Below are positions 168 to 15,781 of a stretch of DNA of 20,099 nucleotides, one piece after another. The translations under genes were made by a program, and so were the position numbers. How positions within the stretch are numbered: the first letter of the stretch is position 1; each line of letters starts with the position of its first letter. This DNA is from a virus, in the IMG/VR virus record IMGVR_UViG_3300028844_001386, positions 1 to 20,099 of that record, one strand, 5' to 3'. Under the pieces are notes generated by a model. That model had not been told where the DNA came from, did not search any database, and saw only the letters and a list, made by a program, of their open reading frames with translations.

Positions 168-215
168 AAGTTATCTTTCTTATTAGGGGGTAAGGGGGAT
201 AACTTGATTTTTCTT
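168..215 (+). terminator. Rho-independent terminator-like hairpin, plus strand
   Basis: Bases 168-182 pair with 191-205 to give an uninterrupted 15-bp stem, including three G-U pairs (176-178 with 195-197), closed by the 8-base loop TTAGGGGG. A T-rich tail follows (208-212 TTTTT, then CTT). The three G-U pairs would be A-C mismatches in the opposite transcript, so the structure is strand-specific and stable only in plus-strand RNA. It most likely ends a transcript entering from the left of the window and separates it from the portal unit. Weaknesses: the tail begins two bases after the stem, and the stem has few G-C pairs. Confidence 0.55.
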
Positions 216-288: not shown

Positions 289-296
289 TATATTTG
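289..296 (+). promoter_or_regulatory. Promoter-like -7 box (TATATTTG) before portal gene
   Basis: TATATTTG matches the Bacteroidota sigma-70 -7 consensus TAnnTTTG exactly. It lies 17 bases before the portal ATG, just downstream of the terminator-like hairpin. No TTG -33 box is visible 19-21 bases upstream, so it may be a phage-modified or weak promoter. If transcription starts about 7 bases downstream, the leader would be only around 10 bases. Confidence 0.45.
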
Positions 297-313
297 AAAA
301 AAATTACGTATAG

Positions 314-2617
314 ATGTTCAACGCAAACTATTACATGGGTAAAAATGTTAATTATCCAAAACATAATATTGACCCCAAAAAAAAGGATAAAAAGTGGTAT
401 AAAAAATATGCTGAAGCAGTATATGCAGACTACGTTAATAATAAGCTAACAATTCCATTTTCTATTAGAGGAGAAATAGATCTTTTAAGACTATATGCAA
501 AAGGCAATCAACCCGTAACTAAGTATATGGACAGGCTATCTCCTAGAGATAAAAAAACTAACAAAAGAAAAGGTTACATGAATGTTTCATGGGATATTCT
601 TTCTGTAGTTCCTAAATTCAAAAGAGTTGTAATGGGAATGTTGGATAAGATGGAGTATGATGTTTTTATTGATGCTCTTGACGAAAAGTCAATTTCTGAC
701 AAAGAAAGCATGAAATGGAGAGTGTGGGCTAACAAGGTTTTATCAGAAGAGTTAGGAGAAGATCCTGCTGCAACTCAAGGAATGCCTCAGATGCCTGGAA
801 TGCCTAACTTTGTTCCAAATAGTGTAGAGGAACTTGAGATGATGAAAGATTTAGGTTCTTTTAAATTAGCTATTGAAATAGCTTATGAAAAAGCATTAAA
901 TTGGTCTTATGATATGTCTTCTTGGGAAGATATAAAAAGAAGAATTTTTAGTGATTTATTTGACATAGGAATAGCAATGGCTAAAGACTACGTTGATCCT
1001 ATATCAAAGCAAGTAAAAAGTAGGTATGTTAACCCAAGAGATGCAATAATTTCTTATAGCTCTGATCCTTCGCATAAAAACATGAAGATTGCTGGAGAAA
1101 TGAGAAAAATGACTATAGCTCAATTAAGAGAGAAGGCTCCTGAAATACCAGATGAAGAAATTTTTGAAATAGCAGAAAAATATAGAAACTTTGAAAATAA
1201 CAATGCTGCTGTCGATATAAACTCTGGAATATCTGCTGACAATTTTGAAGAATATGATCTTTATGTTATGGAACTGGAATTTGTAGATTATGATTTAGAG
1301 AAGTATGAAAAAAAGAAAACATCTAGAGGTAATTACATGTACTATCCAAAATCTTTTGACTATAACAAAAAGAATACTGAAAAAAGACAGTCACATACGG
1401 TAAAGAAAAAAAAGATTAGAAAGGTTAGTTGGATTGTAGGAACTGAGGTTGTTTTTGATTGGGGAGAACAAACAGACATTCCTAAAAATGATTCAGAAGA
1501 AGTTTGTTTATCTTTTAAAGCTTATAGAGAAAACGAAAAATCAATATTATCTTCTATTATTCCTTTAGCAGATAACGTACAGCTTACATGGCTTAAGATG
1601 CAAAATGCAATAGCAATGTCTGCTCCTTCTGGAATCAAAGTCGAAGTCGGTGCTCTTACAGGAATATCTATGGGAGGTTCTAAAATGGGTCCACTAGACA
1701 TATTAAGATTATACAGACAAACTGGTGATGTTGTATATAAAGCTAGTACTCATCAGTCTCAGTTTACAGGCAATCAACCATCTCCAATAGATAGAATTTC
1801 AGGAGGTGTTGGTTCGGAATTAAACGAATATATCACCATACTTAATCATGATATTGAAATGATACGTCAAATTACAGGAATATCTCCTGCTATGGATGCA
1901 TCTACTCTAAGCACAGAAACTCCAGTAGGAACTTCTAAAATGCAAGTTGGAGCAACTAATAATGTTATGCATAATTTATTTATAGGTTATAAAACTTTAA
2001 AGACTCAATTAGCTCAAAATATGTTAGTAAGATGGCAGGTTAGAATAAGAAGCGGTGAAATAAAAGGTTTATCAAAAGCTATTGGAAATAACTCTGTTAA
2101 TATAATGAAACAATCTTCTAAGACTAGATTAGAAGAGCTAGGTCTTATTGTCCAAATGAGGCCATCTGATCAAGAGAAAAACGAGATTAAACAAATGGCT
2201 ATACAATCTTCTAATGCTAAGAAGCAAGGTGGGGTTGGTATAAGAATGTCAGATTTTATGTATATTTCTAGACTTATTGATCAAGGTTCTATTAAGTTGG
2301 CTCAAGCTTATTTAGCTATCAAAGAAAATCAAGAGCAGGAGCGTCAAGACCAAGTACAAGCACAACTTGAGCAACAGCGTCAAGAAGGAGCAGCACAATT
2401 AGCACAGCAAAAATCTGAGCAAGACTTAGGTAAAATCCAGAATACTGAAGCAGCTAAGGCTCGTAAGGAAATAGAGGTTGAGCAGGTTAAGTCAAGTCTT
2501 AGAATACAAGAAAGATCTAACAAAGCAGAACTTGATGATAATTCTAAAACAAAACAACATTATAATAAGCTTGATGAGGATTTAATGAAGTCTTCAAATA
2601 AAACTTTACGTAAGTGA
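314..2617 (+). CDS. Portal protein (crAss-like type)
   Basis: This 767-residue protein is probably the dodecameric portal, through which DNA is packaged and ejected and on which the head assembles. The N-terminus is Lys/Tyr-rich. A conserved-looking block around residues 85-125 (GYMNVSWDILSVVPKF, then GMLDKMEYDVF) resembles the start of portal bodies in crAss-like phages. The middle (about 395-570) carries helices and the DITGISPAMD-like segment (QITGISPAMD) seen near the wing/stem of this family. The C-terminus (about 670-755) is a long Gln/Glu/Lys-rich coiled coil, suited to the inward barrel. It is followed by the scaffold-like and capsid genes, the usual portal position. The chosen ATG lies just after a promoter-like box without a Shine-Dalgarno sequence; an in-frame ATG at 335 (residue 8) is an alternative and would give a longer leader. 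Function is inferred from family resemblance and synteny. Confidence 0.78.
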   Translation: MFNANYYMGKNVNYPKHNIDPKKKDKKWYKKYAEAVYADYVNNKLTIPFSIRGEIDLLRLYAKGNQPVTKYMDRLSPRDKKTNKRKGYMNVSWDILSVVPKFKRVVMGMLDKMEYDVFIDALDEKSISDKESMKWRVWANKVLSEELGEDPAATQGMPQMPGMPNFVPNSVEELEMMKDLGSFKLAIEIAYEKALNWSYDMSSWEDIKRRIFSDLFDIGIAMAKDYVDPISKQVKSRYVNPRDAIISYSSDPSHKNMKIAGEMRKMTIAQLREKAPEIPDEEIFEIAEKYRNFENNNAAVDINSGISADNFEEYDLYVMELEFVDYDLEKYEKKKTSRGNYMYYPKSFDYNKKNTEKRQSHTVKKKKIRKVSWIVGTEVVFDWGEQTDIPKNDSEEVCLSFKAYRENEKSILSSIIPLADNVQLTWLKMQNAIAMSAPSGIKVEVGALTGISMGGSKMGPLDILRLYRQTGDVVYKASTHQSQFTGNQPSPIDRISGGVGSELNEYITILNHDIEMIRQITGISPAMDASTLSTETPVGTSKMQVGATNNVMHNLFIGYKTLKTQLAQNMLVRWQVRIRSGEIKGLSKAIGNNSVNIMKQSSKTRLEELGLIVQMRPSDQEKNEIKQMAIQSSNAKKQGGVGIRMSDFMYISRLIDQGSIKLAQAYLAIKENQEQERQDQVQAQLEQQRQEGAAQLAQQKSEQDLGKIQNTEAAKARKEIEVEQVKSSLRIQERSNKAELDDNSKTKQHYNKLDEDLMKSSNKTLRK

Positions 2618-2651
2618 TTTGCATTTTAATAAAATATTATTATATCTTTAC
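2618..2651 (+). promoter_or_regulatory. Promoter-like element TTTG-21-TATCTTTAC
   Basis: TTTG at 2618-2621 and TATCTTTAC at 2643-2651 are separated by 21 bases, close to the Bacteroidota -33/-7 spacing. The -7 box deviates by having A where the consensus has G (TAnnTTTG), the same change seen at 6338 and 15250. It sits in the 71-base gap between the portal and scaffold-like genes and would give a leader of about 30 bases. This is the only one of the four boxes with a plausible -33 partner. Confidence 0.48.
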
Positions 2652-2688
2652 ATTATTATTTAACAAAATATCTTAAAATTATTCTAAA

Positions 2689-3834
2689 ATGAGTACAGAA
2701 GATGACATAACAGCAGCAATGTTTGAGGACGCTGGATTACCATATCAAGCTCCAAAAACTGAGGAAACCGTAGAAAATACGGAGGAAGTTAATCCTGAGA
2801 ATACAGAAACCGAGCCAGTAGCCGAAATGGTGAAAGAAGGAGATGTTGTAGAAGGAGAAACTCCAGAAGTAGTTTCTGAGGAAACTGATAGTTCAGAGTT
2901 TGACGAACTAAGTGCCGATGAGTACATTGACGAAATGTCAAATGGAATGTTCAAGTCGGAACAAGAGTTTAAAGATTCAGGAATATTAGAATTAGCCACA
3001 GAGTATGATCAACTAGTGGATAAGTATAATCAGTTATTGGATGAAAGCGAGAAGGAGCCAGAGTTCGCAAGTGATTATGTAAAAGGATTAAATGATTTTA
3101 TACTTAAAGGAGGTGATCCTAAAGTATATTCTGAGGTAGTGTCAGTTGATTACTCACAAAAGAGTGAATTTGATGTTATGAAGATGTCTCTTAAAGCTAA
3201 TGATGGCTTAACAGATCAAGAAGCGACAGAATATCTTAACAACAAATACAAGCTTGACGAGGAATTATATGATGCTACAGAAATGAAGTTAGGAGCTATT
3301 GAGCTTAAAAGAGATTCTAAAAGCGAGCGTGAAAACCTTGTTAATCTTCAAAAAGAAGCAATGACCCCTAGAACAGGAACTGAAAATCAGACAGGACCAA
3401 CAGACGAAGAGCTAAGTTATGCTGAAGAACAGCGAATAGACAAATGGGACGGAGTAGTTACAGAAAAAGTAAATAGTGTTTCTGATTTGAAATACGATTT
3501 TGGTTTAGAGTATTCTATAAGTGAAGAGCAAAAAGATGAGATAGATGATAAGGTTTTTAATATTATATCTGACTCTGGTTTAGAATTTACATCTGAAAAT
3601 GTTGAAAATGTAAAGTCAATGGCTATGAACTTATTTATACAGGAAAACCATCAGCAAATGATGAAAGCATCATATGATTTTGGAATTTCTCAAGCTCAAG
3701 AACAAAAAATAAAAAGTGACCACAATCCGAGTGCGGTTCCAGAAACAGAAGTAAGAGATTCTGAAACTAAAATGTCGAGAAGTGATCATGCCATTGCTAT
3801 GATTGAACGGATGGAAGGAGTGAAGTTAACATAG
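2689..3834 (+). CDS. Acidic scaffold-like protein
   Basis: This 381-residue protein lies between the portal and major capsid genes, the classic position of a scaffolding protein, which directs capsid assembly and then leaves. The first 75 or so residues are extremely acidic (Glu/Thr/Val/Pro-rich) and look disordered. Residues about 75-230 are charged and helical, with no recognisable enzyme motif. A Gly/Thr-rich linker around 225-240 leads to a second helical part, and the short C-terminus (about 350-381, ending MIERMEGVKLT) is a basic-amphipathic helix. In other phages such a helix is the part that binds the capsid protein. No protease motif was seen. It is probably co-transcribed with the capsid gene, 30 bases downstream. 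The start follows an AT-only stretch without a Shine-Dalgarno sequence. It could instead be an internal cargo protein. Confidence 0.55.
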   Translation: MSTEDDITAAMFEDAGLPYQAPKTEETVENTEEVNPENTETEPVAEMVKEGDVVEGETPEVVSEETDSSEFDELSADEYIDEMSNGMFKSEQEFKDSGILELATEYDQLVDKYNQLLDESEKEPEFASDYVKGLNDFILKGGDPKVYSEVVSVDYSQKSEFDVMKMSLKANDGLTDQEATEYLNNKYKLDEELYDATEMKLGAIELKRDSKSERENLVNLQKEAMTPRTGTENQTGPTDEELSYAEEQRIDKWDGVVTEKVNSVSDLKYDFGLEYSISEEQKDEIDDKVFNIISDSGLEFTSENVENVKSMAMNLFIQENHQQMMKASYDFGISQAQEQKIKSDHNPSAVPETEVRDSETKMSRSDHAIAMIERMEGVKLT

Positions 3835-3864
3835 AAAAATAATTTAAAATTAAAATAAAAAAAA
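3835..3864 (+). promoter_or_regulatory. A/T-only, A-rich leader of the capsid gene
   Basis: The 30 bases between the scaffold-like stop and the capsid ATG are entirely A and T, ending in a run of eight A. No Shine-Dalgarno sequence is present. In Bacteroidota, weakly structured, A-rich leaders are known to drive efficient translation in place of an anti-Shine-Dalgarno pairing. An extreme example before the capsid gene fits its need for high expression. Confidence 0.4.
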
Positions 3865-5247
3865 ATGGCAGCATCAGATTTAAATAGTTTCGCAGCAGAG
3901 TATGCTTCGGACATTGTATCAACTTTTGATATTGATAAACCAGAGGTATTAAATACCTTATTTCGTTCTAAAGGAGATCAAGGAGTAGGATTTTTCCGTA
4001 CTATTGATTCATTAGGATTTAAAAGTCCAGTTTCTCAGGATGAGTATTCTCACCATGAAGAAGATTGGATTCATGAAACAATTCACGCTAACGCACTAAC
4101 AGCAGCAGGAGTAGCTAATGCACCAGTAGATATTGTTTTACAAGCTTCAACTGATATTAGATTGAATAAATACTACCCAAGATTATGGGATATTGTAATG
4201 TTCCCTGATGGAGTTACTGCTTCAGTTACTAATATTTCTGGTACTGTACCAGTTATTACTGTTCAGCTTACTCCTAATCAATTAGGTGATAATATTCCAG
4301 AAATCGCAGCAGGTCAAGAATTAATTATCATGTCAGCAGCTTTCTCTGAAGGTTCTGATCAACCAGAGTCTGCATTTGCAGGAACGTACAAGTACACAAA
4401 TAATGTTCAAATCATTAAAGAACGTATGACTGTTACTGGTACTGAAATGACAAACAGAAAATGGTTTGACAAAGATTCAGATGGACGAGCTATAAACGCT
4501 TATTATGTTAAAGGGCAGTTAGACGCTGATTACAGAATGAACTTGAAAATTGATGGAGCATTATTATTTGGTAGAAAAACTACAAATACAAATGCAGCAT
4601 TAGTTGATTCTTCTACACAGAGAGTAATTAAATCAACTGAAGGATTATTCCCATATGTTGAGTCTAATGGAAACATTGTTAATTATACTCCAGGTTCTTA
4701 TAGCGTTGCTAAATTCAATGAAACTGCTAAATTGTTAGATAAGGAGTTCGCTTCTAGAAACATAGCATGTTTTAATGGTATTGACTTAAACATCGACATC
4801 GAAGATGCTTTAGTTGATTACTTTGCAACAACTGATATTAACTACACTAAATCTGCTTATAGCCAAATGTTTGGTGGTGACGAAGGTTTAGCTGCTTCAG
4901 TTGGGTTCAAATGCTTAACGAAAGCAGGACGAACATTTGCCTTTAAACAATTAGGTATTCTATCTCACGCAAAGCTTTACGGAGCTTCTGGGTATGACTA
5001 CTCTAAGCAAGGTATCTGGTGTCCAGTTGGAAAGAAGAAAGATACTAAAACGCAAAATGATGTACCTACTTTTGGGTGTCGTTACAAAGCGATGGGTAAC
5101 TACTCAAGAATGATGGAGTCTTGGCAAATCAACGGTGCTGGAAACGGTCAGAAAGTGATTTCTAAAGATGTAAACAACTACGATTTGAGAACGCATATTG
5201 GTGCTCACTTCGCAGCAGGTAATCAAATGGTTATAGTAAAGCCTTAA
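3865..5247 (+). CDS. Major capsid protein (HK97-fold, crAss-like type)
   Basis: This 460-residue protein is the most likely capsid subunit. It follows portal and scaffold-like genes and is directly followed by a strong terminator, as expected for an abundant product. The N-terminal arm (about 1-35) leads to the segment QDEYSHHEEDWIHETI (about 57-72), acidic and His-rich like the E-loop region of crAss-like capsid proteins. A beta-rich insertion with VTNISGTVPVITVQLTPNQL (about 118-140) may form an outer-surface domain. The central helical P-domain-like part spans about 180-260. The C-terminal half contains the Gly/Tyr/Lys-rich GASGYDYSKQGIWCP (about 373-388) and ends with beta-strands (HFAAGNQMVIVKP). 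No prohead protease gene or delta-domain is obvious. The fold is inferred from length, context and remembered family features. Confidence 0.75.
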   Translation: MAASDLNSFAAEYASDIVSTFDIDKPEVLNTLFRSKGDQGVGFFRTIDSLGFKSPVSQDEYSHHEEDWIHETIHANALTAAGVANAPVDIVLQASTDIRLNKYYPRLWDIVMFPDGVTASVTNISGTVPVITVQLTPNQLGDNIPEIAAGQELIIMSAAFSEGSDQPESAFAGTYKYTNNVQIIKERMTVTGTEMTNRKWFDKDSDGRAINAYYVKGQLDADYRMNLKIDGALLFGRKTTNTNAALVDSSTQRVIKSTEGLFPYVESNGNIVNYTPGSYSVAKFNETAKLLDKEFASRNIACFNGIDLNIDIEDALVDYFATTDINYTKSAYSQMFGGDEGLAASVGFKCLTKAGRTFAFKQLGILSHAKLYGASGYDYSKQGIWCPVGKKKDTKTQNDVPTFGCRYKAMGNYSRMMESWQINGAGNGQKVISKDVNNYDLRTHIGAHFAAGNQMVIVKP

Positions 5248-5261
5248 TAATGGCAAATTAA

Positions 5262-5296
5262 AAAAGCTCCTGGGTTATCTCAGGAGCTTTTATTAT
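5262..5296 (+). terminator. Intrinsic terminator after the major capsid gene
   Basis: AAAAGCTCCTG (5262-5272) and CAGGAGCTTTT (5281-5291) form a perfect 11-bp stem with an 8-base loop, and the descending arm runs into TTTTATTATT. It begins 14 bases after the capsid stop. It is strong and, because of the A and T runs on both sides, could also work in the reverse direction. It would sharply lower transcription of everything after the capsid gene. Confidence 0.85.
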
Positions 5297-5329
5297 TAAC
5301 AATAATGTGTTCAACTAAAAATAACACCA

Positions 5330-6268
5330 ATGTTAGAATTAAACGGAAAAGAAGAAAAAGTAAACAAGGCATATCTTGCCAAATTAGGGATAGAAAAATA
5401 TCCTGTAACATTTAAGCTTGTAAATCGACTTAAGAAGTTCGATAATGTAAACAAGAGGTGGCAGATACCAAGAAGTTTTAATTTAGAAAACTCATTCAGT
5501 ACTTATACTGACGATGGTTCTTTACTATTTAGATATTATAAAACAAAAAGACCTAAAGAAATAGGCAATAAAGTTGTTGAAGATTATTATCCATTGACTA
5601 CCCAAATTGGTCATACAGGAGAATTAACTCTTGACGAAAAAGATTTAGATCTTATTGCATTTCTAGTATTAAGCGACAGAAACGCTACTAGTAAATATAA
5701 AGCAAAAGATAAGCAAACATTTTTCTTTACCGAAAACAAAGCAAAAGAGGCAAAAGCTGCATCTAAGCTATTTAAGAAAGAAAACAAAGTAACAAGCTTA
5801 TTATTATCTCTTACCCTAGAAAAGGTTACAGATATAGCTAAAAGTTATCAGATTCCTGGCATAGACTCTATGGATATTGAAGAAATTCAAATGTCTATTA
5901 AGCCTTATATTTCTGGAAGAGACTTAGAAAGAAAGCTAGATACTTTTTTAGATAAAGTTGGTTCAGACGGTGATGTAGAATTATTAGCTTTAATTAGTGA
6001 TTGCATTGAGTTTAATATAATTAAGCACAATAAAGAAAGAGGTAAATGGTATCTACTTACTGCAACAGGAAAGGAAGATGAAGCTATTTGTGAAGTTAGA
6101 GGAGGAGAAGAAGGAATTAGTAGACTTGCAAGTTATTTAATTAAGTTTGATGATAAAAACTGGAGACAATATTTAACTACAAAAGTAGAAGAGGTAAAGC
6201 TAGAAACTTTACCTAAACCTACAAAAAGTAAAAAAACTCCTAAAAAAGAAGCGACAGCAAAAGCTTAG
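5330..6268 (+). CDS. Unknown virion-cluster protein, possible SAP/HeH-like domain
   Basis: This 312-residue protein lies between the capsid and head-fibre genes. I do not recognise it with certainty. Residues about 1-150 form an alpha/beta domain that opens with KYPVTFKLVNRLKKFDNVNKRWQIPRS and is rich in Tyr, Lys and Arg. Residues about 155-195 (LSLTLEKVTDIAKSY, then IPGIDSMDIEEIQMSIKPYI) have the helix-loop-helix spacing of SAP or HeH/LEM domains, which bind DNA in other proteins. A helical and beta part follows (about 200-285), then a Lys/Pro tail (KPTKSKKTPKKEATAKA) suited to contacting DNA or RNA. A role in genome packing or the head neck is inference. The gene is isolated between two terminators and has no visible promoter, so it probably depends on read-through from the capsid transcript. 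No Shine-Dalgarno sequence is present. Confidence 0.5.
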   Translation: MLELNGKEEKVNKAYLAKLGIEKYPVTFKLVNRLKKFDNVNKRWQIPRSFNLENSFSTYTDDGSLLFRYYKTKRPKEIGNKVVEDYYPLTTQIGHTGELTLDEKDLDLIAFLVLSDRNATSKYKAKDKQTFFFTENKAKEAKAASKLFKKENKVTSLLLSLTLEKVTDIAKSYQIPGIDSMDIEEIQMSIKPYISGRDLERKLDTFLDKVGSDGDVELLALISDCIEFNIIKHNKERGKWYLLTATGKEDEAICEVRGGEEGISRLASYLIKFDDKNWRQYLTTKVEEVKLETLPKPTKSKKTPKKEATAKA

Positions 6269-6288
6269 TATTATTATTGTAATGTATT

Positions 6289-6332
6289 AAAAGCTACGTT
6301 TCTATTTTTTATAGTGGGAATGTAGCTTTTTT
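6289..6332 (+). terminator. Intrinsic terminator after the unknown gene at 5330
   Basis: Bases 6289-6305 pair with 6314-6330 in a stem of 17 pairs including several G-T wobbles. The base of the stem is AAAAGCTAC against GTAGCTTTT, with an 8-base loop, and TTTTTT follows on the descending side. It starts 20 bases after the stop codon. The wobbles favour the plus-strand RNA. The next promoter-like box begins only a few bases downstream. Confidence 0.8.
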
Positions 6333-6337
6333 ATTCA

Positions 6338-6346
6338 TATATTTAC
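6338..6346 (+). promoter_or_regulatory. Promoter-like box TATATTTAC before the head-fibre gene
   Basis: This 9-base box is identical to the one at 15250 and resembles the Bacteroidota -7 element TAnnTTTG with A in place of G. It lies just after a terminator and 14 bases before an ATG preceded by an A-rich leader (ACAAAAAAAATACACA). No TTG -33 box is visible. It would start the transcript for the fibre, ring and muzzle-like genes. Confidence 0.5.
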
Positions 6347-6360
6347 AAAAAAAATACACA

Positions 6361-8295
6361 ATGGCTTTTACAAATAGTTCAATTAATTTAAGTACTACAT
6401 TTGATTTGTCAAATTCCTCTAAGGTGTTCTCTTTTACAGATAATACTGACTATGTAGGAACTTTCGGCATAGCTCTTGCAGATGTAGTTGGTATATTTAC
6501 CATTATAGACCCAACAGGAGCAACAGTTTATCAGAACAATAGTTTTGCATCTCCAGACATAGATGCAGATGTGTCCTTGTCATTTAACACTGTAGAGCTT
6601 CCTTTAGATGTCAATAGACAGGTATTAAAAGGAAATTACTCTATTCAGTATAGAGTTGAAATTACAGGAGCTACAGATCCAGGGCAATACCTCTCAGAAA
6701 GCACGTTTAATTATAGTTTAGATGTACCTTGCTTAAAGTTAGACGTTTCTTATGATTTGGAACAAGCAACTTTAACAAGTGTAGATGTAACTGATTATGG
6801 AAGTTATTTAGTAAGTGTATCTAGAGTTCATACTTTAGTTCCTCCTGTAGAAAGTGGTCTTTCAAATACAGTTTCTTCTTTGGAAAGAGTTACAGCTACT
6901 CCAATAGCTACAAAAACTTGGACTGCTAAGATTGTTTCTACAATTACGGTAGATATAGGTGATGGTCCAATAGTTTACTTATTAGACGGACAAAAAGAAA
7001 TTGTAGTAGTAAAAGCAGATGGTTCTTGCGATTTACATAACTGTATTGAAAGTATTAGTAATAAATACGATGCTCAAAAGAACAGTAATCCAACTTTAGC
7101 TTCTGCAACTAGAAAAGAATTAGATGACGCAGTATTATATTATAATTTATATAAAATGGCGTTACAATGCGGTAATTTAGAATTAGCTGCATCTTATAAA
7201 GGTAAAATATTAGTTTGTACAGATAAGTGTGGTTGTGATACCTCATCATGTTCTGAAACTACTCCTGCTGATTGTGATACATCTATCTCGGAAGTTATAA
7301 ATCCATTTCAGGTAACTACTATTGCAGGACCTCAAGGGCCTCAAGGTATTAAGGGTGGAAATGGTGCTCAAGGAGCAGCAGGCACAAACGGAACAAACGG
7401 AACAAACGGAACAAACGGAACAGATGGAACAAACGGAGCAGACGGTGCTCCAGGAGCTGTAGGAGATCCAGGAGGATATTCTAGTAATTGGCTTTTTTCT
7501 ACAACAACGTCAAGTGGCCCATCTTCTACACAATTAAGGTTTAATTCTGCAACTTCTTCTTCTGTTTCTGAAATTTACGTATCAGACATAAATAGTAACA
7601 GTATAGATGTTAATGAATTTATTGAAAGTTTTAATAATGGTGGAGCGTTTGGAAGGGTTAAACTATTTAAGGCAGATGATGCTACCAAATTTTGGTTTGG
7701 GGAAGTAACTTCTGTAACGGACAATACAACGGACTTTACTTTAGGGGTATCGTATATTGATAGCAACTCTGCATTTTCTTTATCAGATGAGGTGGTACTA
7801 TCATTTACTGGATCAGGACAAGACAATGTTATTTCATTACACAATGACTTTACGTCTAGCGGAAGCTCTAGTGCTTCTCTAGTTCCTGTAAAAACTTTTA
7901 CTTTGTTACGAGATACTTTAAATAAGGTTGGAGATGGATTACTAATAAGAACATCTGCAACTAAAGTAGCTGATCATGTTGGTGCTTTAAATATTAAACT
8001 AGGCACAGGGAATATAAGTCTTCCTGGTTCTTGGAGTTTTCCTGCTCTTAGTATTAATGCAGCTATTAGAATAGAAGTGTTTTATATGACTAATATACAA
8101 TTTTATTATAGACTTAGAATTGATTATACGGATGCAGCAGGAGCTTCTACAGGCTCTTTAACTTTATTTTCTTCTAAAGGTCTTTTTGCTGGTGAAGATT
8201 TCACCCTAGGTAATCTAGACATAGAAGTAATAGTAGCTACTGATGGAGTTCGGACAACAAATATAGAAGACTTTCAGGTAACTAAAATACAATAA
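6361..8295 (+). CDS. Collagen-containing head fibre protein
   Basis: This 644-residue protein is a modular fibre. Residues about 1-125 and 125-220 look like two beta-sandwich domains, probably the part that attaches to the capsid. A Cys-rich helical segment follows, with cysteines at 223, 228, 270, 286, 290, 292, 297 and 305. Residues 323-370 are sixteen uninterrupted Gly-X-Y triplets (GPQ, GPQ, GIK ... GTN, GTN ... GDP), which in phage fibres form a collagen-like trimeric stalk. The distal part (about 371-644) is Ser/Thr/Asn-rich and beta-stranded, likely a knob that binds glycans or surfaces. The position after the capsid gene and the general design match head fibres of crAss-like and other Bacteroidota phages; a tail fibre cannot be excluded. 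No signal peptide is present. Translation starts without a Shine-Dalgarno sequence, after an A-rich leader. Confidence 0.68.
   Translation: MAFTNSSINLSTTFDLSNSSKVFSFTDNTDYVGTFGIALADVVGIFTIIDPTGATVYQNNSFASPDIDADVSLSFNTVELPLDVNRQVLKGNYSIQYRVEITGATDPGQYLSESTFNYSLDVPCLKLDVSYDLEQATLTSVDVTDYGSYLVSVSRVHTLVPPVESGLSNTVSSLERVTATPIATKTWTAKIVSTITVDIGDGPIVYLLDGQKEIVVVKADGSCDLHNCIESISNKYDAQKNSNPTLASATRKELDDAVLYYNLYKMALQCGNLELAASYKGKILVCTDKCGCDTSSCSETTPADCDTSISEVINPFQVTTIAGPQGPQGIKGGNGAQGAAGTNGTNGTNGTNGTDGTNGADGAPGAVGDPGGYSSNWLFSTTTSSGPSSTQLRFNSATSSSVSEIYVSDINSNSIDVNEFIESFNNGGAFGRVKLFKADDATKFWFGEVTSVTDNTTDFTLGVSYIDSNSAFSLSDEVVLSFTGSGQDNVISLHNDFTSSGSSSASLVPVKTFTLLRDTLNKVGDGLLIRTSATKVADHVGALNIKLGTGNISLPGSWSFPALSINAAIRIEVFYMTNIQFYYRLRIDYTDAAGASTGSLTLFSSKGLFAGEDFTLGNLDIEVIVATDGVRTTNIEDFQVTKIQ
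7381..7434 (+). repeat. 9-bp tandem repeat coding Gly-Thr-Asn
   Basis: Six in-frame 9-base units encode GTN GTN GTN GTN GTD GTN. Units 2, 3, 4 and 6 are the exact sequence GGAACAAAC; unit 1 differs by one base and unit 5 (GGAACAGAT) by two. The near-identity at synonymous positions shows recent expansion by slippage rather than only protein-level selection. Gain or loss of units keeps the frame and would change the length of the collagen stalk. Confidence 0.85.
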
Positions 8296-8304
8296 TAAGA
8301 GTCA

Positions 8305-9021
8305 ATGATTTCAATAGACACACTTAAACAATACGTTGATTATATATCAAATAAAGAGCAGTCGGGGAATAACTATTCTCCAAAGCAGTTTAATATGCTT
8401 GTGTCAAGGGCTGTTGATGATATTGAAAGGTGGCTTATAGGATTAGTTTCTGAATATAAGCCAATGCAACCACTTCCAAGTGTAGCTTATGATATTACTC
8501 AAAAAGTAAAGGATGATTTAAGGTTTTTAAAGAATACAGAGGTGTTAAGTGTGGATGCTAATGGTTTTATGGACATTCCCGTAGACTATGTATATTTAGC
8601 ATCTATTGCTTATAGGCGTGTTGAGAACAATGCAGAAACAGGGACTCCTGATGTTGAGCCTATTTCAGTAGAGGTTATGTCAGATGATAATTGGACAGGA
8701 AGATTAAATAACGCTATTAAAAAGCCAACTCACGAATTTCCAGTATGTAACTTTTATGACAAGACTAAAGTTTTGTTTAGTCCTAAAGATTTAGGCTCGG
8801 TTACGTTTACTTATTTAAAAAAAATGGAAACTCCAGTTTGGGGTTATACTTTAGATGTAAACGACAACCCTATATTTGATCCAGTTTCTAGTGTAGACAT
8901 AGATTTACCAGAAATATTATTGAATGATATTGCAAGAGTAATTATAGGTTACATGGGGATAAATATAAGAGAAAACGAATTAATTCAATATGCTGAGTTG
9001 GTAAAAACTAAAGGAATATAG
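8305..9021 (+). CDS. Ring/connector protein 1 (neck or tail ring)
   Basis: This 238-residue protein belongs, by resemblance, to the ring proteins that stack below the portal in crAss-like phages. The helical N-terminus (about 1-80) contains YVDYISNKEQSGNNYSPKQF and YDITQKVKDDLRFL, patterns I recall from this family. Then comes MDIPVDYVYLASIAYRRV (about 88-106), a beta segment shared in outline with the next two proteins, and SVTFTYLKKMETPVWGYTL (about 170-188). The C-terminal helix (about 205-235) follows DLPEILLNDIARVIIGYMG. It begins 9 bases after the fibre stop, with only a weak AAGAG element upstream, and its TAG stop is directly followed by the next ATG, suggesting translational coupling. 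Confidence 0.6.
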   Translation: MISIDTLKQYVDYISNKEQSGNNYSPKQFNMLVSRAVDDIERWLIGLVSEYKPMQPLPSVAYDITQKVKDDLRFLKNTEVLSVDANGFMDIPVDYVYLASIAYRRVENNAETGTPDVEPISVEVMSDDNWTGRLNNAIKKPTHEFPVCNFYDKTKVLFSPKDLGSVTFTYLKKMETPVWGYTLDVNDNPIFDPVSSVDIDLPEILLNDIARVIIGYMGINIRENELIQYAELVKTKGI

Positions 9022-9642
9022 ATGTCATTAACAAAAGCAAAAATAGCAGCATTAATAAGCGAAATCAAACATGGCGGTGATGCACCTTCTAAGCCTAAAT
9101 TTCACTATACTATAATCTATGCTATGGCAGAAGTTGCCAGAAATCAAATTATAGATATTGCTTATAAAGAGATGCGAAAAGATGGTGAAAATAGCCTTCC
9201 AGGAGAATTTTACAAAGCATATAAAAATATAGAAGTTAAAGAGGATTGTGATACTGACAGAAAGTATGTTGATTTGCCTTCAAGAATAATAACATTACCT
9301 CACAACAAAGGGTTGCTTTCAGTAAGTCCTATGAAAGAAGTTAGTAATACTTTTAATATTATGGACGCAGGTTCAGACTCTATATTCTTAGGTTTAGATG
9401 CTGATTCTTTTTATTACCCTGAAGTTTATATTGAAGATGAAAGACTATACTTGAGAAACCTTCCAGTAGGTGTTAGCAGTTTGTTTATTAGAATGATTCC
9501 TGCTATTGACGATTTTAAGAGTGACGATATAATTCCAATTCCTGCTGTGCTAGAAGCAGAATACATTACGATGATTTCAAAATTATTGGACGAAGAAAAA
9601 GAAACGCCACAAGACCATTATAACGATTCTAACGCTAATTAA
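9022..9642 (+). CDS. Ring/connector protein 2
   Basis: This 206-residue protein starts at the base after the preceding stop codon. It shares a layout with its neighbours: a helical N-terminus (about 1-65, with a Tyr-Ala-Met-Ala-Glu-Val-rich helix), then KYVDLPSRIITLPHNKGLLS (about 80-100), a beta-strand region with RLYLRNLPVGVSSLFIRMIP (about 140-160), and a closing helix (about 175-195). This fits a stacked head-tail adaptor or tail ring. AAAGGA upstream (9009-9014, inside the previous gene) may act as a weak ribosome-binding site, unusual here. The exact position in the tail cannot be told from sequence. Confidence 0.52.
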   Translation: MSLTKAKIAALISEIKHGGDAPSKPKFHYTIIYAMAEVARNQIIDIAYKEMRKDGENSLPGEFYKAYKNIEVKEDCDTDRKYVDLPSRIITLPHNKGLLSVSPMKEVSNTFNIMDAGSDSIFLGLDADSFYYPEVYIEDERLYLRNLPVGVSSLFIRMIPAIDDFKSDDIIPIPAVLEAEYITMISKLLDEEKETPQDHYNDSNAN

Positions 9643-9644
9643 TT

Positions 9645-10433
9645 ATGGGAAAAGAACATACATCAGGATATGTATCATTAAACTACATAGTAAATTTAGT
9701 TTTAATGGATATAAATGAAAACACTTCTGTAAAAAGAAAGAAAGCTCTTCAGTATGCTATTTTAGGACTTACAAGGTTAAACTTATATACACTAGATTCT
9801 GTTAGGACAGCTTATTTAACTCAAAATGATAATTTCACCGTAGACGTACCTAACGATTACATAGATTACACAAAGGTTGGGGTGATTGTAGATGGACAAT
9901 TAATAACACTTAGTTTAAATCCAGACATTCCTTTTCCAGATAAGAATAAATGTGCTCCTGCAAGCTCTATGTCTAAAGACGAGAATGGGTTTAATCTTTT
10001 TGGCAGTGATTACTACTTCCCTGACTTTGGATATTCTTATTTAGACTATTATAGAAACGGACAATATGTTGGAGAACAATATGGTTTAGGAGGTGGTCTT
10101 GGGTTATTTGAATTTAGATATAACCCTGAAGACAGGCAAATAGCGTTCACAGACAAGGCTAGTAATGGAGAAATAATATTAGAATATAAATCTTCGGGGA
10201 TAAATAAAGATGGCTCATCTATAATTCCTAGAGAGGCTGTAGAGCCATTAAGAAGGTGGGTTCATTGGCAGTTAGATGAATATAATGATAAGATAGCTCA
10301 GTCAGCTAAAACTCGTAGAGAGCGATTATTTTTAGAGGCTGAGGCTGATTTAAGACATTTTAACTTTATCTTTACTATTGATGAATACATGGACAATAAG
10401 TATTCTGTTTCTAAACAAACAATTAGTAGATAA
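9645..10433 (+). CDS. Ring/connector protein 3
   Basis: This 262-residue protein is the third and clearest of the ring-like set. The N-terminal helices (about 1-60) precede FTVDVPNDYIDYTKVGVIVDG (about 64-84), a Gly/Tyr/Phe-rich loop (about 110-150) and an IAFTDKASNGEIILEYKSSG beta hairpin (about 166-185). The C-terminal helices (about 195-262) contain PREAVEPLRRWVHWQLDEYN and a charged RRERLFLEAEADLRHF helix. Such arrangements are typical of short-tail ring or gatekeeper proteins in Bacteroidota phages. Its last base is the first base of the muzzle-like ATG (TAATG), so the two are translationally coupled. Confidence 0.58.
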   Translation: MGKEHTSGYVSLNYIVNLVLMDINENTSVKRKKALQYAILGLTRLNLYTLDSVRTAYLTQNDNFTVDVPNDYIDYTKVGVIVDGQLITLSLNPDIPFPDKNKCAPASSMSKDENGFNLFGSDYYFPDFGYSYLDYYRNGQYVGEQYGLGGGLGLFEFRYNPEDRQIAFTDKASNGEIILEYKSSGINKDGSSIIPREAVEPLRRWVHWQLDEYNDKIAQSAKTRRERLFLEAEADLRHFNFIFTIDEYMDNKYSVSKQTISR

Positions 10434-13400
10434 TGCAAAACGTAGAAAGAGAGGGCTTTGCTGGTTTAAATTCAGATGATGAGGACAGAGCAATGCCAAA
10501 AGGCGATTATAGAAGTGCTACCAATATAAGAAATGGTTCTAGCGACACAGGAAGCGTTGGTGCCATAGAAAACTTAAAAGGAAATCTGCAAATTGAAGAT
10601 AATCTTCCAGAGGGGGTATATAATACTATAGGAGCCTATGAGGATGTTGTAGGAAACAGCATTATATATTTTCTATTTAATCTTAGCGTAATTAAGCAAA
10701 CACCAACTGGCCCTATATCTAAGGTTGTTAATAATGGCTTAATCATGAGATTCTTCTTAGATACAGAAGAAATAGTCACTGTAGGAAGTAGTAAATTATT
10801 TGATTTTAATGCTGATAGTAATATACACTCTATAGATTTAGTAGATAATAAACTTTATTGGACAGACGGTGAAACAGAGCCAAAGAAGATAAACATTGAT
10901 AAAGGCTTAAATAGTTCTGTCCCTAGAAAAATAAATATATTCTTTCCTGATGCTTATGAGCTATATTGGGATACCAATGTTTACACAGGCTCTATAGAGG
11001 TGACAGATGCTTTTAGTGCAACTACTTTTACCGTATATATTCCAGAAATAGGTGGAGTTCCTACAACTTTAGATAGTTTTTCTAGTCAAGCAGCAGCAGC
11101 AATTAATGATCAAGTAGAGGGTGATAATACTATAGTTGCAAACGCTTGTGGTAGTTTCTTGCAAATAGAATTTTTAAATCCAGGAAATAGCGATATACAG
11201 TTTTTAACAGGAGGGTTTGATTTTTTAGTAGTTCCAGATAATTTTTATAAAAGCATTAACACAGACGTTGTTAATCAAATTAAAGCATCTCCTGCTTGTC
11301 AGCCTAGCTTTGAGTTGTTTGCTAATACAGCAAAGCTTTCTAATTACATTGTTAAAAAGAACTTTCAGTTTGCTGTAAGGTATGTTTTCGATGATAATGA
11401 AAAAACAACACTTAGCCCTTATAGTCTTATTAGTTATCCTGAAGTTTCTTATGGCAATCCTAACGAAAACTTAAATGGAATAAGAATATTTTATACTGAT
11501 GATAGGTTGTTGGATGTATCTTCTAGGGCTGTTATAAAGCAAGTTGAATTGTGCTTTAGAGAGGGAAATGGAGGAAAATGGAAATTAATAGAATCTCTTA
11601 CTGAATCAGAAATTGGAGCTAAAGAGGTAGACCATTTTTTTGATTTTTATAATGACGAAGCATATACTTTTTTACCAGAGGCTGAGTCAAACATTAACTA
11701 TCACGAAGTCCCTAAGAAATCAGATACTCAAGAATTTGTTGAAAACAGGCTTTATCATGGAGGAATAACTAGAGGTTTTGATCCAGTGTGTGTTGAGGCT
11801 GACATTAATATTGGTTATAATAACCCTATTGAAATTCCAGACACATATTCAATTTCAGGCTCAATACTTATAAAAAATAAATATAAGACAAATGATTATT
11901 CGCAGCAAGTTATATGGCAAGAGGATGAAGGAGGGGCTATTAAATTTGGAGGTGTCGATGGAAACACTAAACTAAATACAGATGAAGAATATGACCAAGG
12001 AATACCTTTAGGAGGGTTTGTTGTTTATTTAGCAGGAACCGATTTTTATGCTATTACAGAACAAGATGTTAGATTATCAGCTCCAACTGTCGGTAATAGG
12101 GGTGTATATAGAGCTTGGTCAAATTCAGATAAAACTGATATGGAGCATGCTATTGAAGATGGCCCTATATATCAAAGGTTTGAAATAAAAAATGTTCCTC
12201 CAGGAAAGTATATGATGAGGGTAGCTAGTCATAAAACAACATCGGATTCACTAGCAAATGGGAGCTATCAAAACACTAGTACAACTGTGTCTTATGATCC
12301 TAGAGTTTCACTTGTTTGGGGTACTGAAAAAATAGTTGAAGTAACAAGTTCAAATGTAACATATGATCCTGCTGTAGAGGGATTTTCTGTAATGGATTTT
12401 TCTGATCCAGGTGGGGGAACCGCTGTAGCTCAAGTAGGTTATTTAATCGAAGATGATTCAGGTGTTTTAAATGAGTTTGGACCTCCTATAGAACTAGCAA
12501 GGGTAGGATTAACTACATTAGCTCTAGGGGCTTTTGCATCAGGGCCAAATGAGGCCATACAATACGTCAACGCAAGAGCATATACTGATCACAATGGGTT
12601 TTATTATGCGTTTGGACCTAGTGTTGGTATTGATACAGGTGGAGTTATATCACTATCAAACTCCTTATCAATAGATGGATTTCAAGGGCCTGGTTCTTCT
12701 AGTGTTTTAGGTAGTAATTATTTACAAGGAAGTAATCCTAATTTAGATGTTTCTTCTAAAGTAAAAATAAAAGGCTTTGTTAGAAATGACGCTGGTTTTG
12801 GGGCAGAAGGAGTTGTTATTGTGCCTAGATTTGCAAGGCCAACACAAACAGATGGAAACGGAAACTATAGTAAAAATCTTTACGGTGATACTTACTTATA
12901 TGACACTTCTGTATCTCCTCTTAATGCAGCTAGAAGAGATCCGTCTGTTTTAACGATTGGCTATCCTTTATGGGCTGAGTTTTCGGTTGATAATTCTGGA
13001 TACCCTCTTATAGGAGTAGGAACAAATACAGGTTATTACAATGTAAATAATCCATTTGAGCTTAATGATAATGAAATAACTTCTTCTGAAGTGGGTGGTG
13101 GCTCAGGATTTAAGAGAGGCTATGATGGTAGATTTGGTATAATATATAGAGACAATGGAAGTAGGGTTTCACAGGTATTCACTGATGAAAGTTTACAAAC
13201 TCATGTTAATTTTTATACAGAAAGAAATGAGTATGGAGTGCAAGAAAACTATGGTAAACCATCTTTAGAATGGTCTATAGCACATAAAGCTCCTGAGTGG
13301 GCTACAAACTATCAATGGGTAAGAACTAAAAATGAATCTGCATTAGACTTTTTTCAATTTATCATTTCTGATGTAACTTTTTATGACGAGGATAATAACG

Positions 13401-15238
13401 TAACAGGGGCTTTTGCTAGTGCTGTTAAAGTCGTAATGAACCTAGCTAATATCACTCAATATGGGGATCAAAACCCAGGGACAACAGTTTCTATGCCTGC
13501 TTCAATAGACTTAGATTGGAGGATTAGATTTATAAACACTGCTGGTGGAAGTTATTATGACTTTTTTGACGAGGCTTTAGTTGAGGCAGACCCGACAACA
13601 CTTGCTATTGCAAAAAACTCAGAAATAGAGCCTTTAGCAGGAGGGCTTATTGAGGTTTATCGTCCACAAAGACTTTCTGAAACCAAGCTTTATTACGAAT
13701 TTGGCCAGTGTTATGAGGTTGTAAATGGCTTTCACCAAGGGCCTGCTAAAAACCAGTCTGAATGGAAGTTTACAGATAATCAGTTTAACACAGGAAACTT
13801 GTCTTTTATAGGTAGTGGTTCTCATGATTTTGTAGTTGGTCAAATTGTAGATGTTTATCAAGACTATCCATATACAAATGGAACTTATAATGGAAAAGCT
13901 ACAATAATAGAGATACCTACATCTAACTCAATAGTTTTAGATAAAGCATTTGGAGCCACTTCTGGTCCTGAAGGTGGAATTATTATAGGAAGAGCTAGTG
14001 GTGTGTTTGAGAGGGGCGATTCTTATTACAGAACAAGAGTCATGACATATAATAATCTTGTAGATAGAGTAACAAAAGCTATTGAGGATCCTAATATATC
14101 AGATTTTTATGATAGTGAGCATACAGACATAGGTAGGTTACATATAGAGGCTCCGTTAGAAAAAGAAAAGAAAGAAGAGTCTCTTATAGTTTTTAGTGAC
14201 TTTTTAGATGAAGCATCAAACATTAATAAGTTAAATGACTTTATAGGGGTAAACAATGAGTTGTTGCCGATTGAATATGGAGCTATAAGAAAACTAATTA
14301 AAGCAAATAATGTTTTATTATCTATATGTGAGCTTAGGACGGTTTCTTTATATATAAACGAGGCTGTAATTACATCTGCATCTGGTGATGACACTTTAGT
14401 AGCTACAGAAAGGGTTATTGGAAATGTTCGGGCTATGCAAGACCATTATGGAACTATTAACCCTGAGAGCGTTTATGAAAGGGAAGGAACCGTTGTTTTT
14501 TGGGACGGACTAAAAGGTGCGGTGGTTCAAGTGTCTAGCAATGGCTTATTTCCTATATCATCATTTAAGATGGTTAAACACTTTAATGATATATCTAAAG
14601 CTTATAGAGATTCTGGAAAAGAAATGAGAGTATATGGTGTAAATGACCAATACTTCAAGGATAATTTATTAGTTTTTGAAGGAGTTACTGGTTTTGTTGA
14701 TCCTCAAACTGTAGTATATTCAAATCAAATAAAAAGATGGACTAGTTTTAGAGATTATGTTCCAGAAAGAGTTGCAAGTACTTCTATGAAGCTTATAACA
14801 TTTAATGACGGAAAGTTATACGTTCATAATTCTAATCCTATTCACAATAACTTCTATGGTACTCAGTACACATCTAAGATACAAACGGTTTCTAATGAAA
14901 ATGCTAAAAACATTAAAGTATTTAGAGCTATGTCTTATGAGTCTAACCTACCTTGGTCAGCTCCTTTAATCACTGTACCTGCTAATAGTCAGTATAAATT
15001 AGGTATGCAAAGTAGGTTAAAAGCAGGTAAGTTTATCAATAAAGAAGGTATATATTATTCGGAGTTTTTAAAAGATTTAAATTCTCCTGGATTTGCTACT
15101 GCTACAGAAGCTTTGATTGATGGCAGAGACTTGAGAGGAAAGGTTCTTGAAATGGTTTTAGAGTCTGATAATACCGAACATACAGTATTATTTTCTTTAA
15201 ATGTCAAATCTACTCCTAGCGAAATGTCGAATAGGTGA
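10433..15238 (+). CDS. Giant tail muzzle/stabilisation-like protein
   Basis: At 1601 residues this is the largest complete gene. The N-terminus (about 8-51: GFAGLNSDDEDRAMPKGDYR, then NIRNGSSDTGSVGAIENLKGN) resembles the start of the large muzzle or stabilisation proteins that close the tail of crAss-like phages; such proteins often form beta-propeller-like repeats, and KLYWTDGETEPKKINI (about 141-156) fits one blade. Residues about 525-605 and 777-825 look like inserted carboxypeptidase-regulatory/Cna-B-like beta-sandwiches: the first ends FEIKNVPPGKYMMRVASH, the second has KIKGFVRNDAGFGAEGVVIV followed by TDGNGNYSKN. The rest is beta-rich, including propeller-like blades at about 1290-1480, and ends with a strand region (about 1560-1595). 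It follows the ring genes, as expected for the tail tip, and stops with TGA directly followed by TAA. The role in DNA retention or receptor contact is inference. Confidence 0.65.
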   Translation: MQNVEREGFAGLNSDDEDRAMPKGDYRSATNIRNGSSDTGSVGAIENLKGNLQIEDNLPEGVYNTIGAYEDVVGNSIIYFLFNLSVIKQTPTGPISKVVNNGLIMRFFLDTEEIVTVGSSKLFDFNADSNIHSIDLVDNKLYWTDGETEPKKINIDKGLNSSVPRKINIFFPDAYELYWDTNVYTGSIEVTDAFSATTFTVYIPEIGGVPTTLDSFSSQAAAAINDQVEGDNTIVANACGSFLQIEFLNPGNSDIQFLTGGFDFLVVPDNFYKSINTDVVNQIKASPACQPSFELFANTAKLSNYIVKKNFQFAVRYVFDDNEKTTLSPYSLISYPEVSYGNPNENLNGIRIFYTDDRLLDVSSRAVIKQVELCFREGNGGKWKLIESLTESEIGAKEVDHFFDFYNDEAYTFLPEAESNINYHEVPKKSDTQEFVENRLYHGGITRGFDPVCVEADINIGYNNPIEIPDTYSISGSILIKNKYKTNDYSQQVIWQEDEGGAIKFGGVDGNTKLNTDEEYDQGIPLGGFVVYLAGTDFYAITEQDVRLSAPTVGNRGVYRAWSNSDKTDMEHAIEDGPIYQRFEIKNVPPGKYMMRVASHKTTSDSLANGSYQNTSTTVSYDPRVSLVWGTEKIVEVTSSNVTYDPAVEGFSVMDFSDPGGGTAVAQVGYLIEDDSGVLNEFGPPIELARVGLTTLALGAFASGPNEAIQYVNARAYTDHNGFYYAFGPSVGIDTGGVISLSNSLSIDGFQGPGSSSVLGSNYLQGSNPNLDVSSKVKIKGFVRNDAGFGAEGVVIVPRFARPTQTDGNGNYSKNLYGDTYLYDTSVSPLNAARRDPSVLTIGYPLWAEFSVDNSGYPLIGVGTNTGYYNVNNPFELNDNEITSSEVGGGSGFKRGYDGRFGIIYRDNGSRVSQVFTDESLQTHVNFYTERNEYGVQENYGKPSLEWSIAHKAPEWATNYQWVRTKNESALDFFQFIISDVTFYDEDNNVTGAFASAVKVVMNLANITQYGDQNPGTTVSMPASIDLDWRIRFINTAGGSYYDFFDEALVEADPTTLAIAKNSEIEPLAGGLIEVYRPQRLSETKLYYEFGQCYEVVNGFHQGPAKNQSEWKFTDNQFNTGNLSFIGSGSHDFVVGQIVDVYQDYPYTNGTYNGKATIIEIPTSNSIVLDKAFGATSGPEGGIIIGRASGVFERGDSYYRTRVMTYNNLVDRVTKAIEDPNISDFYDSEHTDIGRLHIEAPLEKEKKEESLIVFSDFLDEASNINKLNDFIGVNNELLPIEYGAIRKLIKANNVLLSICELRTVSLYINEAVITSASGDDTLVATERVIGNVRAMQDHYGTINPESVYEREGTVVFWDGLKGAVVQVSSNGLFPISSFKMVKHFNDISKAYRDSGKEMRVYGVNDQYFKDNLLVFEGVTGFVDPQTVVYSNQIKRWTSFRDYVPERVASTSMKLITFNDGKLYVHNSNPIHNNFYGTQYTSKIQTVSNENAKNIKVFRAMSYESNLPWSAPLITVPANSQYKLGMQSRLKAGKFINKEGIYYSEFLKDLNSPGFATATEALIDGRDLRGKVLEMVLESDNTEHTVLFSLNVKSTPSEMSNR

Positions 15239-15249
15239 TAAAAAATTAA

Positions 15250-15258
15250 TATATTTAC
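15250..15258 (+). promoter_or_regulatory. Promoter-like box TATATTTAC before the cupin-like gene
   Basis: Identical in all nine bases to the box at 6338, and 7 bases before the ATG at 15266. If transcription starts about 7 bases downstream of the box, the mRNA would be leaderless or nearly so. It lies in one of the few gaps between genes. No -33 box is evident. Confidence 0.42.
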
Positions 15259-15265
15259 AAGATAT

Positions 15266-15781
15266 ATGAGTCTTAAGGATATAAATAAAAGTCTTGAGAG
15301 CTACAGTAGTGATGCTAGAGCTTCTATAGTTGGGTTTGAAGAAGCGTTAAAAGGAGTAAAAAGTTCTTTTTCAGGCGATTCAAAAGTTTGTCCCCTAGTA
15401 CATAGGTTTTCAGACCAAATGTATGTAAGAGAAATAACTATTCCTGCTGACACTGTTTTAGTTGGAAAGATTCATAAACATGATCACCCTAATTTTTTAA
15501 TGAAAGGTAGGGTTAGAGTTGTTACTGAAGGAGCAGGTGAAGAAATGTTAGAAGGCCCTATGTCAATAATATCTCCTCCAGGCACAAAAAGAGTGTTATA
15601 TGCAGAGACTGAACTAGTATGGGTTACTGTTCATCATAATCCATCTAATACTCAGGATTTAGAAGAATTAGAAGACTTGGTTATAGCAGACTCTTTTGAG
15701 GACTACGAGAAGTTCAAGAAGAAGGATAATCGAATTATAAATAAATTTAAAAGATTAATAATTAAAAAATTAAGCATATGA
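15266..15781 (+). CDS. Cupin-like (RmlC-fold) virion-cluster protein
   Basis: This 171-residue protein has a helical N-terminus (about 1-40) and a central cupin-like beta barrel (about 45-125). The barrel carries G67-KI-H70-K-H72-D-H74-PN with G81, reminiscent of cupin motif 1, then G97 with P104-P-G106, reminiscent of motif 2, and a final H123-H124. The Glu expected in motif 1 is not at the usual place (N76 and F77 stand there), and the motif 2 His is Arg109, so a standard 3His-1Glu metal site is not conserved; metal binding by H70, H72, H74 and H123 remains possible. The basic C-terminus ends FKRLIIKKLSI. Similar small proteins occur in phage virion clusters I recall, of unknown role. The stop overlaps the next start by four bases (ATGA). 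Enzyme or structural role is unknown. Confidence 0.55.
   Translation: MSLKDINKSLESYSSDARASIVGFEEALKGVKSSFSGDSKVCPLVHRFSDQMYVREITIPADTVLVGKIHKHDHPNFLMKGRVRVVTEGAGEEMLEGPMSIISPPGTKRVLYAETELVWVTVHHNPSNTQDLEELEDLVIADSFEDYEKFKKKDNRIINKFKRLIIKKLSI

Follow-up and report, generated by a model that had tools for sequence, protein, structure and literature searches.

The closest described counterparts of the signals reported here are the sigma-ABfr promoters of Flavobacterium johnsoniae (PMC6847099), F. psychrophilum (PMC9723704) and B. thetaiotaomicron (PMC7366714). According to parts of the F. johnsoniae report, the last base of the -7 element is a nearly invariant G, a -33 element stands out far less among probable promoters, transcription from probable promoters starts 4–5 nt after the box, and leaders exceed 10 nt in 87% of transcripts with a probable promoter (PMC6847099). 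Excerpts of the other two reports give leaders shorter than 10 nt as about 3.7% in B. thetaiotaomicron (PMC7366714) and leaderless mRNAs as 5.5% of those considered in F. psychrophilum (PMC9723704); as far as these portions of the three reports go, very short leaders are uncommon in the Bacteroidota phylum. No promoter map for Flavobacteriia podoviruses was present among the literature matches listed.

We analysed a 20,099-base virus record of an uncultured phage (IMG/VR IMGVR_UViG_3300028844_001386, here G000), hereafter the window, which may be a fragment. It holds a structural module of portal, scaffold-position gene, major capsid, collagen-like fibre, virion proteins, a 1601-aa protein and short tail fibre. 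Ten of its 13 proteins were submitted to each of the PHROG and Pfam family searches, and the genes that matter below are these:

314–2617, plus strand: portal gene (phrog_6547, E 7.4e-71)
2689–3834, plus strand: scaffold-position gene (function presumed from position; no PHROG or Pfam match)
3865–5247, plus strand: major capsid gene (phrog_13704, E 7.9e-34; PF17236, E 4e-7)
6361–8295, plus strand: collagen-like tail fibre gene (PF01391)
15266–15781, plus strand: short tail fibre gene (phrog_12032, E 5.1e-35)

Relatives of the portal occur in 87 named-phage records, from phages of Flavobacterium (68), Cellulophaga (15), Tenacibaculum (2) and Maribacter (1) and one unclassified member of the Caudoviricetes. 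The phage collection searched with the window contained no near nucleotide match, zero relatives of the protein of the window's last gene were found, and no RNA family in the window reached the gathering score. When further contigs of the same phage were sought, a 21-base probe matched only the contig L007.

The original prediction had singled out four near-identical boxes, each in one of the rare gaps between genes and shortly before an ATG, as a phage promoter set. Direct reading of the sequence confirmed the boxes at 289, 2643, 6338 and 15250 and their location in gaps that are indeed rare, noncoding sequence amounting to 641 nt or 3.2% of the window:

289–296, plus strand: box TATATTTG ahead of the portal gene; matches the host -7 consensus exactly; start predicted at about 301–302
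2643–2651, plus strand: box TATCTTTAC ahead of the scaffold-position gene; A in place of G; start predicted at about 2655–2656
6338–6346, plus strand: box TATATTTAC ahead of the collagen-like fibre gene; A in place of G; start predicted at about 6350–6351
15250–15258, plus strand: box TATATTTAC ahead of the short tail fibre gene; A in place of G; start predicted at about 15262–15263
2618–2621, plus strand: TTTG 21 nt upstream of box 2643, at -33 distance

Counted from the 8-mer, the boxes stand 17, 38, 15 and 8 nt before the ATG (the earlier range of 7–37 nt was counted from the 9-mer). All four fit the sigma-A -7 pattern of TA, two non-G bases and TTT. The last-base G of the Bacteroidota sigma-A -7 element is present at 289 and, as had been claimed, is replaced by A in three of the four boxes (2643, 6338 and 15250). 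Box 289 alone is therefore filed as a strict TAHHTTTG member, since the other three, which are said to work like one, lack the final G. Also as claimed, a TTTG at suitable -33 spacing (17–23 nt tested; spacer 21) precedes box 2643 only. The gaps before the capsid gene (3835–3864) and before 5330 were searched and hold no box, and a search for an upstream element common to the window boxes returned none that was convincing.

Hairpins accompany several of these gaps:

6289–6330, plus strand: terminator hairpin directly upstream of box 6338 (fold of 6285–6333, z -7.8)
168–205, plus strand: terminator-like hairpin preceding box 289 (weak, a match in the scan only)
5262–5291, plus strand: hairpin after the capsid gene (fold of 5259–5293, z -6.6; listed on the minus strand by the scan)

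The total of the hairpin scan, 12 against 8.8 in shuffles, is weak on its own. The terminator just upstream of box 6338 calls for a new start at that point. No box follows the hairpin after the capsid gene, as is also the case in the relative L008 described below.

Scored on the same sites from which it was derived, TATMTTTAC is concentrated in the gaps as predicted, with three plus-strand occurrences in 641 gap nt against two in 19,458 gene nt (6492 and 10367; a further intragenic occurrence, at 5691, is on the minus strand), and its three forward matches compare with 0.036 expected, 0 of 5000 shuffles of the gaps reaching three. Patterns of the same origin behave alike: TATMTTT(AC or G) occurs four times in the gaps against 0.10 expected (0 of 5000 gap shuffles reach four), and TATMTTTRC six times in the whole window on both strands against 1.85 (0 of 100 shuffles reach six). 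When the independent host pattern is applied to the leaders, TAHHTTTA (3 against 1.7, p 0.24) and TAHHTTTG (1 against 0.3, p 0.28) both occur at about the shuffled level; the sole host-type form to stand out is TAHHTTTAC (3 against 0.17, p 0.001, 1000 shuffles). Since the gaps show no enrichment of this independent pattern, it is comparison, rather than statistics within the window, that carries the case.

The main comparison is with L008 (IMG/VR record G155, 33,503 bases), the closest syntenic relative found besides L007. Identity between the two in the best aligned segments is 25% for the portal, 31% for the capsid, 31% for the collagen-like protein, 26% for the 1601-aa protein and 60% for the short tail fibre; for the scaffold-position gene the match (E 0.52) falls short of significance, and neither the gene following the capsid nor the one at 9022 has a match, so that these were paired by position. 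All ten comparable boundaries agree, four carrying a -7-type box in both phages (portal, scaffold-position gene, collagen-like gene and short-tail-fibre unit) and six carrying none (capsid, the gene that follows it and four closely packed genes), and the agreement extends to six of six boundaries that are at least 15 nt long in both. In L008 all four boxes are TATATTTG. The portal box lies 17 nt from the ATG in both phages, and the tail-fibre unit of L008 starts with one extra gene, its TATATTTG being 4 nt before that gene. The idea that the four boxes form a promoter set for the structural genes is thus backed by a distant relative.

Because this related phage has the same four signals in the usual host spelling, those of the window are probably ordinary host-read promoters. 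Our preferred reading, which we hold to be likely, is that the boxes are the -7 elements of structural-unit promoters read by the host polymerase with the Bacteroidota primary sigma factor. Host RNA polymerase carrying this factor (-7 consensus TAHHTTTG) would recognize the boxes and start 4–5 nt downstream, initiating separate units at the portal, at the scaffold-position gene with the capsid, at the collagen-like fibre onward and at the short tail fibre unit. Leaders would then be about 13, 34, 11 and 4 nt long, or one less, and the short-tail-fibre mRNA would therefore be almost leaderless. The promoter at 6338 would restart transcription just past the terminator. Promoters ending in A would be expected to be weaker alone, and a phage activator may help them. 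The box positions, their enrichment and the agreement with L008 at each boundary are observed; that the units are transcribed, by which enzyme and when, and what the A does, are inferred.

L008 also carries a 19-bp element, TTATAATCATTCTAAATAA or variants of it, that ends exactly 5 nt before four -7 boxes on the structural strand (4506, 7172, 15397 and 18576 in reversed coordinates). These are the boxes of the portal, the scaffold-position gene, the gene after GroEL and the collagen-like gene, on the portal strand. With the motif taken from the scored sites themselves, the four match it at 18, 19, 15 and 19 of 19 positions, among 40 boxes examined; a fifth box reaches 13 of 19, which is also the maximum in 50 shuffles. 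The element looks like a candidate activator site that replaces the -33 element, and L008 looks as though it has a dedicated class of structural promoters, marked by this element upstream of a normal TATATTTG and not by an altered -7 box. A counterpart was looked for in the window and nothing comparable was found.

The close sister contig L007 (5.2 kb) aligns to the window at 90%. Its spacer between the end of terL and the portal is 660 nt long (117–776), holds two extra TATATTTG boxes and terminator-like hairpins, and has its window counterpart within 1–313. The spacer boxes at 231, 333 and 752 all end in TTTG, those at 231 and 333 are TATATTTG, and that at 333 has a -33 TTTG. The window part of the spacer (1–252) is 96% identical between the two and the portal 86%. 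A small ORF of 38 aa lies on the minus strand of L007 at 597–713. The stretches of the spacer that we folded were not clearly better than shuffles (z -1.2, 0.7 and 2.0), and the three weak RNA family matches in L007 1–800 all fell below the cut-off. Between window and L007, 65 of 231 fourfold sites are changed in the portal gene and 2 of 87 from window 2614 to about 3400, the drop beginning at the promoter gap before the scaffold-position gene. This stretch is likely a recombination tract, probably from a recent exchange. Since box 2643 adjoins it, conservation in L007 says little for that box, and the near-zero synonymous change rules it out as proof of selection there.

We surveyed the gap between the portal and the next gene at 117 loci, taking in 80 loci from one list and 32 of the 36 from another plus the window, L007, L024, L025 and L027, with phi13:2 and L139–L142 left out. 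Eight loci were cut and five had no next gene, leaving 104 readable, among them near-duplicates (L138/L143; L039/L058/L065). TAHHTTTG occurs in 23 of these gaps and TAHHTTTAC in two, the window and L007 only; an AT-rich motif ending directly at the ATG, assigned by a loose pattern, occurs in 63, and 16 have none of these classes. A further clade that shares this structural module has such an AT-rich motif, for example TTAATTATATTATATT, abutting the ATG in place of a -7 box (as in L038, L074 and L088); it is also found after capsid genes.

Leaders of relatives are enriched in TAHHTTTG: 9 against 0.6 in L024, 10 against 1.0 in L025, 6 against 1.5 in L026 and 8 against 1.5 in L027 (40 shuffles each). 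Later gaps of L024, L025 and L127 contain a hairpin and T run, judged by eye and not folded, followed by TATCTTTG, an arrangement comparable to window 6289–6346. Leaders of the short tail fibre were inspected at 16 loci. The homologues in L009 and L010 have TATCTTTG 7 nt before the ATG, and that in L013 has TAGCTTTG at 6 nt, its third base violating TAHH; L008 has its box before the preceding gene, and the remaining 12 of the 16, many from other clades, have no such box there. The L024 gene at the corresponding position, which need not be a tail fibre, has TATCTTTG 6 nt before its ATG. TTTAC leaders also occur singly in L015, L017, L025, L031, L045 and L088 and twice in L074. The records behind L015, L017, L031, L088 and L045 were searched for another lineage using TTTAC promoters, an idea that was rejected, each holding 0–2 TAHMTTTACA; TATMTTTACA stands at 4 against 1 for the control in the L074 record and 4 against 0 in phi13:2. 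Among TATMTTTGYA matches in the Flavobacterium phage elemoE (NC_055854), all six on the structural strand are TATC and all six on the other strand TATA, regardless of location; fewer are close before genes.

Host genomes were examined in a sample of 149 from the class to which G001 belongs (a genome titled Polaribacter MAG, in which L143 lies), with the reversed pattern as control. TATMTTTGCA occurs 7519 times against 1694 for the control (4.4-fold) and TATMTTTACA 4531 against 3908, an excess of only 1.16-fold, on which the idea that the host class uses TTTAC was rejected. Single genomes show a clearer excess of TATMTTTACA (G124, 90 against 32; G045, 78 against 30). Sites were sampled from three genomes in which this excess is 2.5- to 2.8-fold: of 30 TTTACA sites, 7 lie within 150 nt before a same-strand gene, against 3 of 30 for the control, the samples being the first 10 listed per genome (30 of 237 sites; control, 30 of 88). 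The weak excess and the few gene-proximal sites indicate that in hosts the A form amounts to no more than a minor variant. No genome with sizeable counts among the 149 has TTTAC above TTTGC relative to the control; G049 does, at 9 against 2 sites.

The original prediction had also suggested a phage or phage-modified polymerase, which our results do not support, given the plain TAHHTTTG of relatives and the searches for the enzymes themselves. The single-subunit RNA polymerase family PF00940 was found in 0 of 10 records (the window, four named records and five contigs; T7 control positive), and sigma-70 region 2 (PF04542) in 0 of 7 (controls positive in 10 of 14); because the window and the contigs may be fragments, this absence speaks for the phage group. 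We rejected the missing -33 element as a sign of a special polymerase: it is faint in the part of the F. johnsoniae report that treats it (PMC6847099), for which reason its lack at three of the four boxes excludes nothing, and the boxes of related phages that a -33 TTTG precedes number 0 of 13 (elemoE), 1 of 11 (part of MW202828), 0 of 6 (part of phi13:2) and 7 of 13 (Panino). In Panino (Maribacter phage, PP540027) three gene-proximal boxes of the packaging and structural module (52628, 46712 and 42025) lack it, and the nearby box at 53636 has it.

The A-for-G change in the -7 box is real and is so far seen in one lineage only. One rival reading is that TATMTTTAC constitutes a dedicated late class, read only by a host polymerase altered by a phage factor so that the final G is dispensable. 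Three of the four window boxes are TTTAC followed by A while the L007 spacer boxes all end in TTTG, host genomes do not favour TTTAC, and L008 appears to mark its structural promoters with its own upstream element. We nevertheless regard this reading as unlikely: it draws on three sites in a single lineage, relatives have TTTG at the same places, the window boxes share no upstream element, and the searches for sigma region 2 in seven records and PF00940 in ten came back empty. Three sites are also too few to separate a dedicated class from drift. An extension of the idea, in which the altered -7 class here and the 19-bp element in L008 are two solutions to one late switch, would need a phage factor and is similarly doubtful.

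Alternatively, the primary sigma factor of this phage's own host might accept or prefer A, making the boxes plain consensus there. The excess in G124 and G045 lends this some colour; the dominance of TTTGC over TTTAC across the sizeable-count genomes, and the presence of TATATTTG in the same phage at 289 and in L007 at 231 and 333, make it very improbable. If anything even less credible is that AT-rich leaders spell the box by chance, or that A-rich sequence there serves translation start only. The gaps are very AT-rich, TAHHTTTA is at chance level in them and the exact pattern was fitted afterwards, but shuffled gaps never yield three TATMTTTAC, L008 agrees boundary by boundary and a terminator stands right before box 6338. 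Reading by the host polymerase and its primary sigma factor accounts best for the four boxes together. From the comparison comes a concrete set of probable promoters for the structural genes of this phage group, host-like in form, together with two candidate switches: the altered -7 base in the window lineage and the fixed upstream element in L008.

Among characterized phages, the nearest parallel is crAss001, a crAss-like Bacteroidota phage for which, in the portion of the report that bears on this, the host polymerase is proposed to transcribe middle and late genes, as proposed here (PMC8375218). Unlike the ten records searched here, in which no PF00940 was seen, crAss001 carries its own virion polymerase, and the same portion leaves open that some phage polymerase subunits serve late genes (PMC8375218). 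With the sigma-ABfr promoters, as parts of the three reports describe them (PMC6847099, PMC9723704, PMC7366714), the window boxes share TA, two non-G bases and TTT; box 289 is exact, box 2643 has a TTTG at -33 distance, and the boxes stand shortly before start codons. They differ from these promoters in that three of four end in A and in that one predicted leader would be only 3–4 nt long. The structural boxes of related phages (L008, elemoE, MW202828 and Panino) end in TTTG, unlike three of the window boxes, and L008 adds its 19-bp element 5 nt upstream; like those of the window, they occupy the equivalent gaps and frequently follow a hairpin with a T run.
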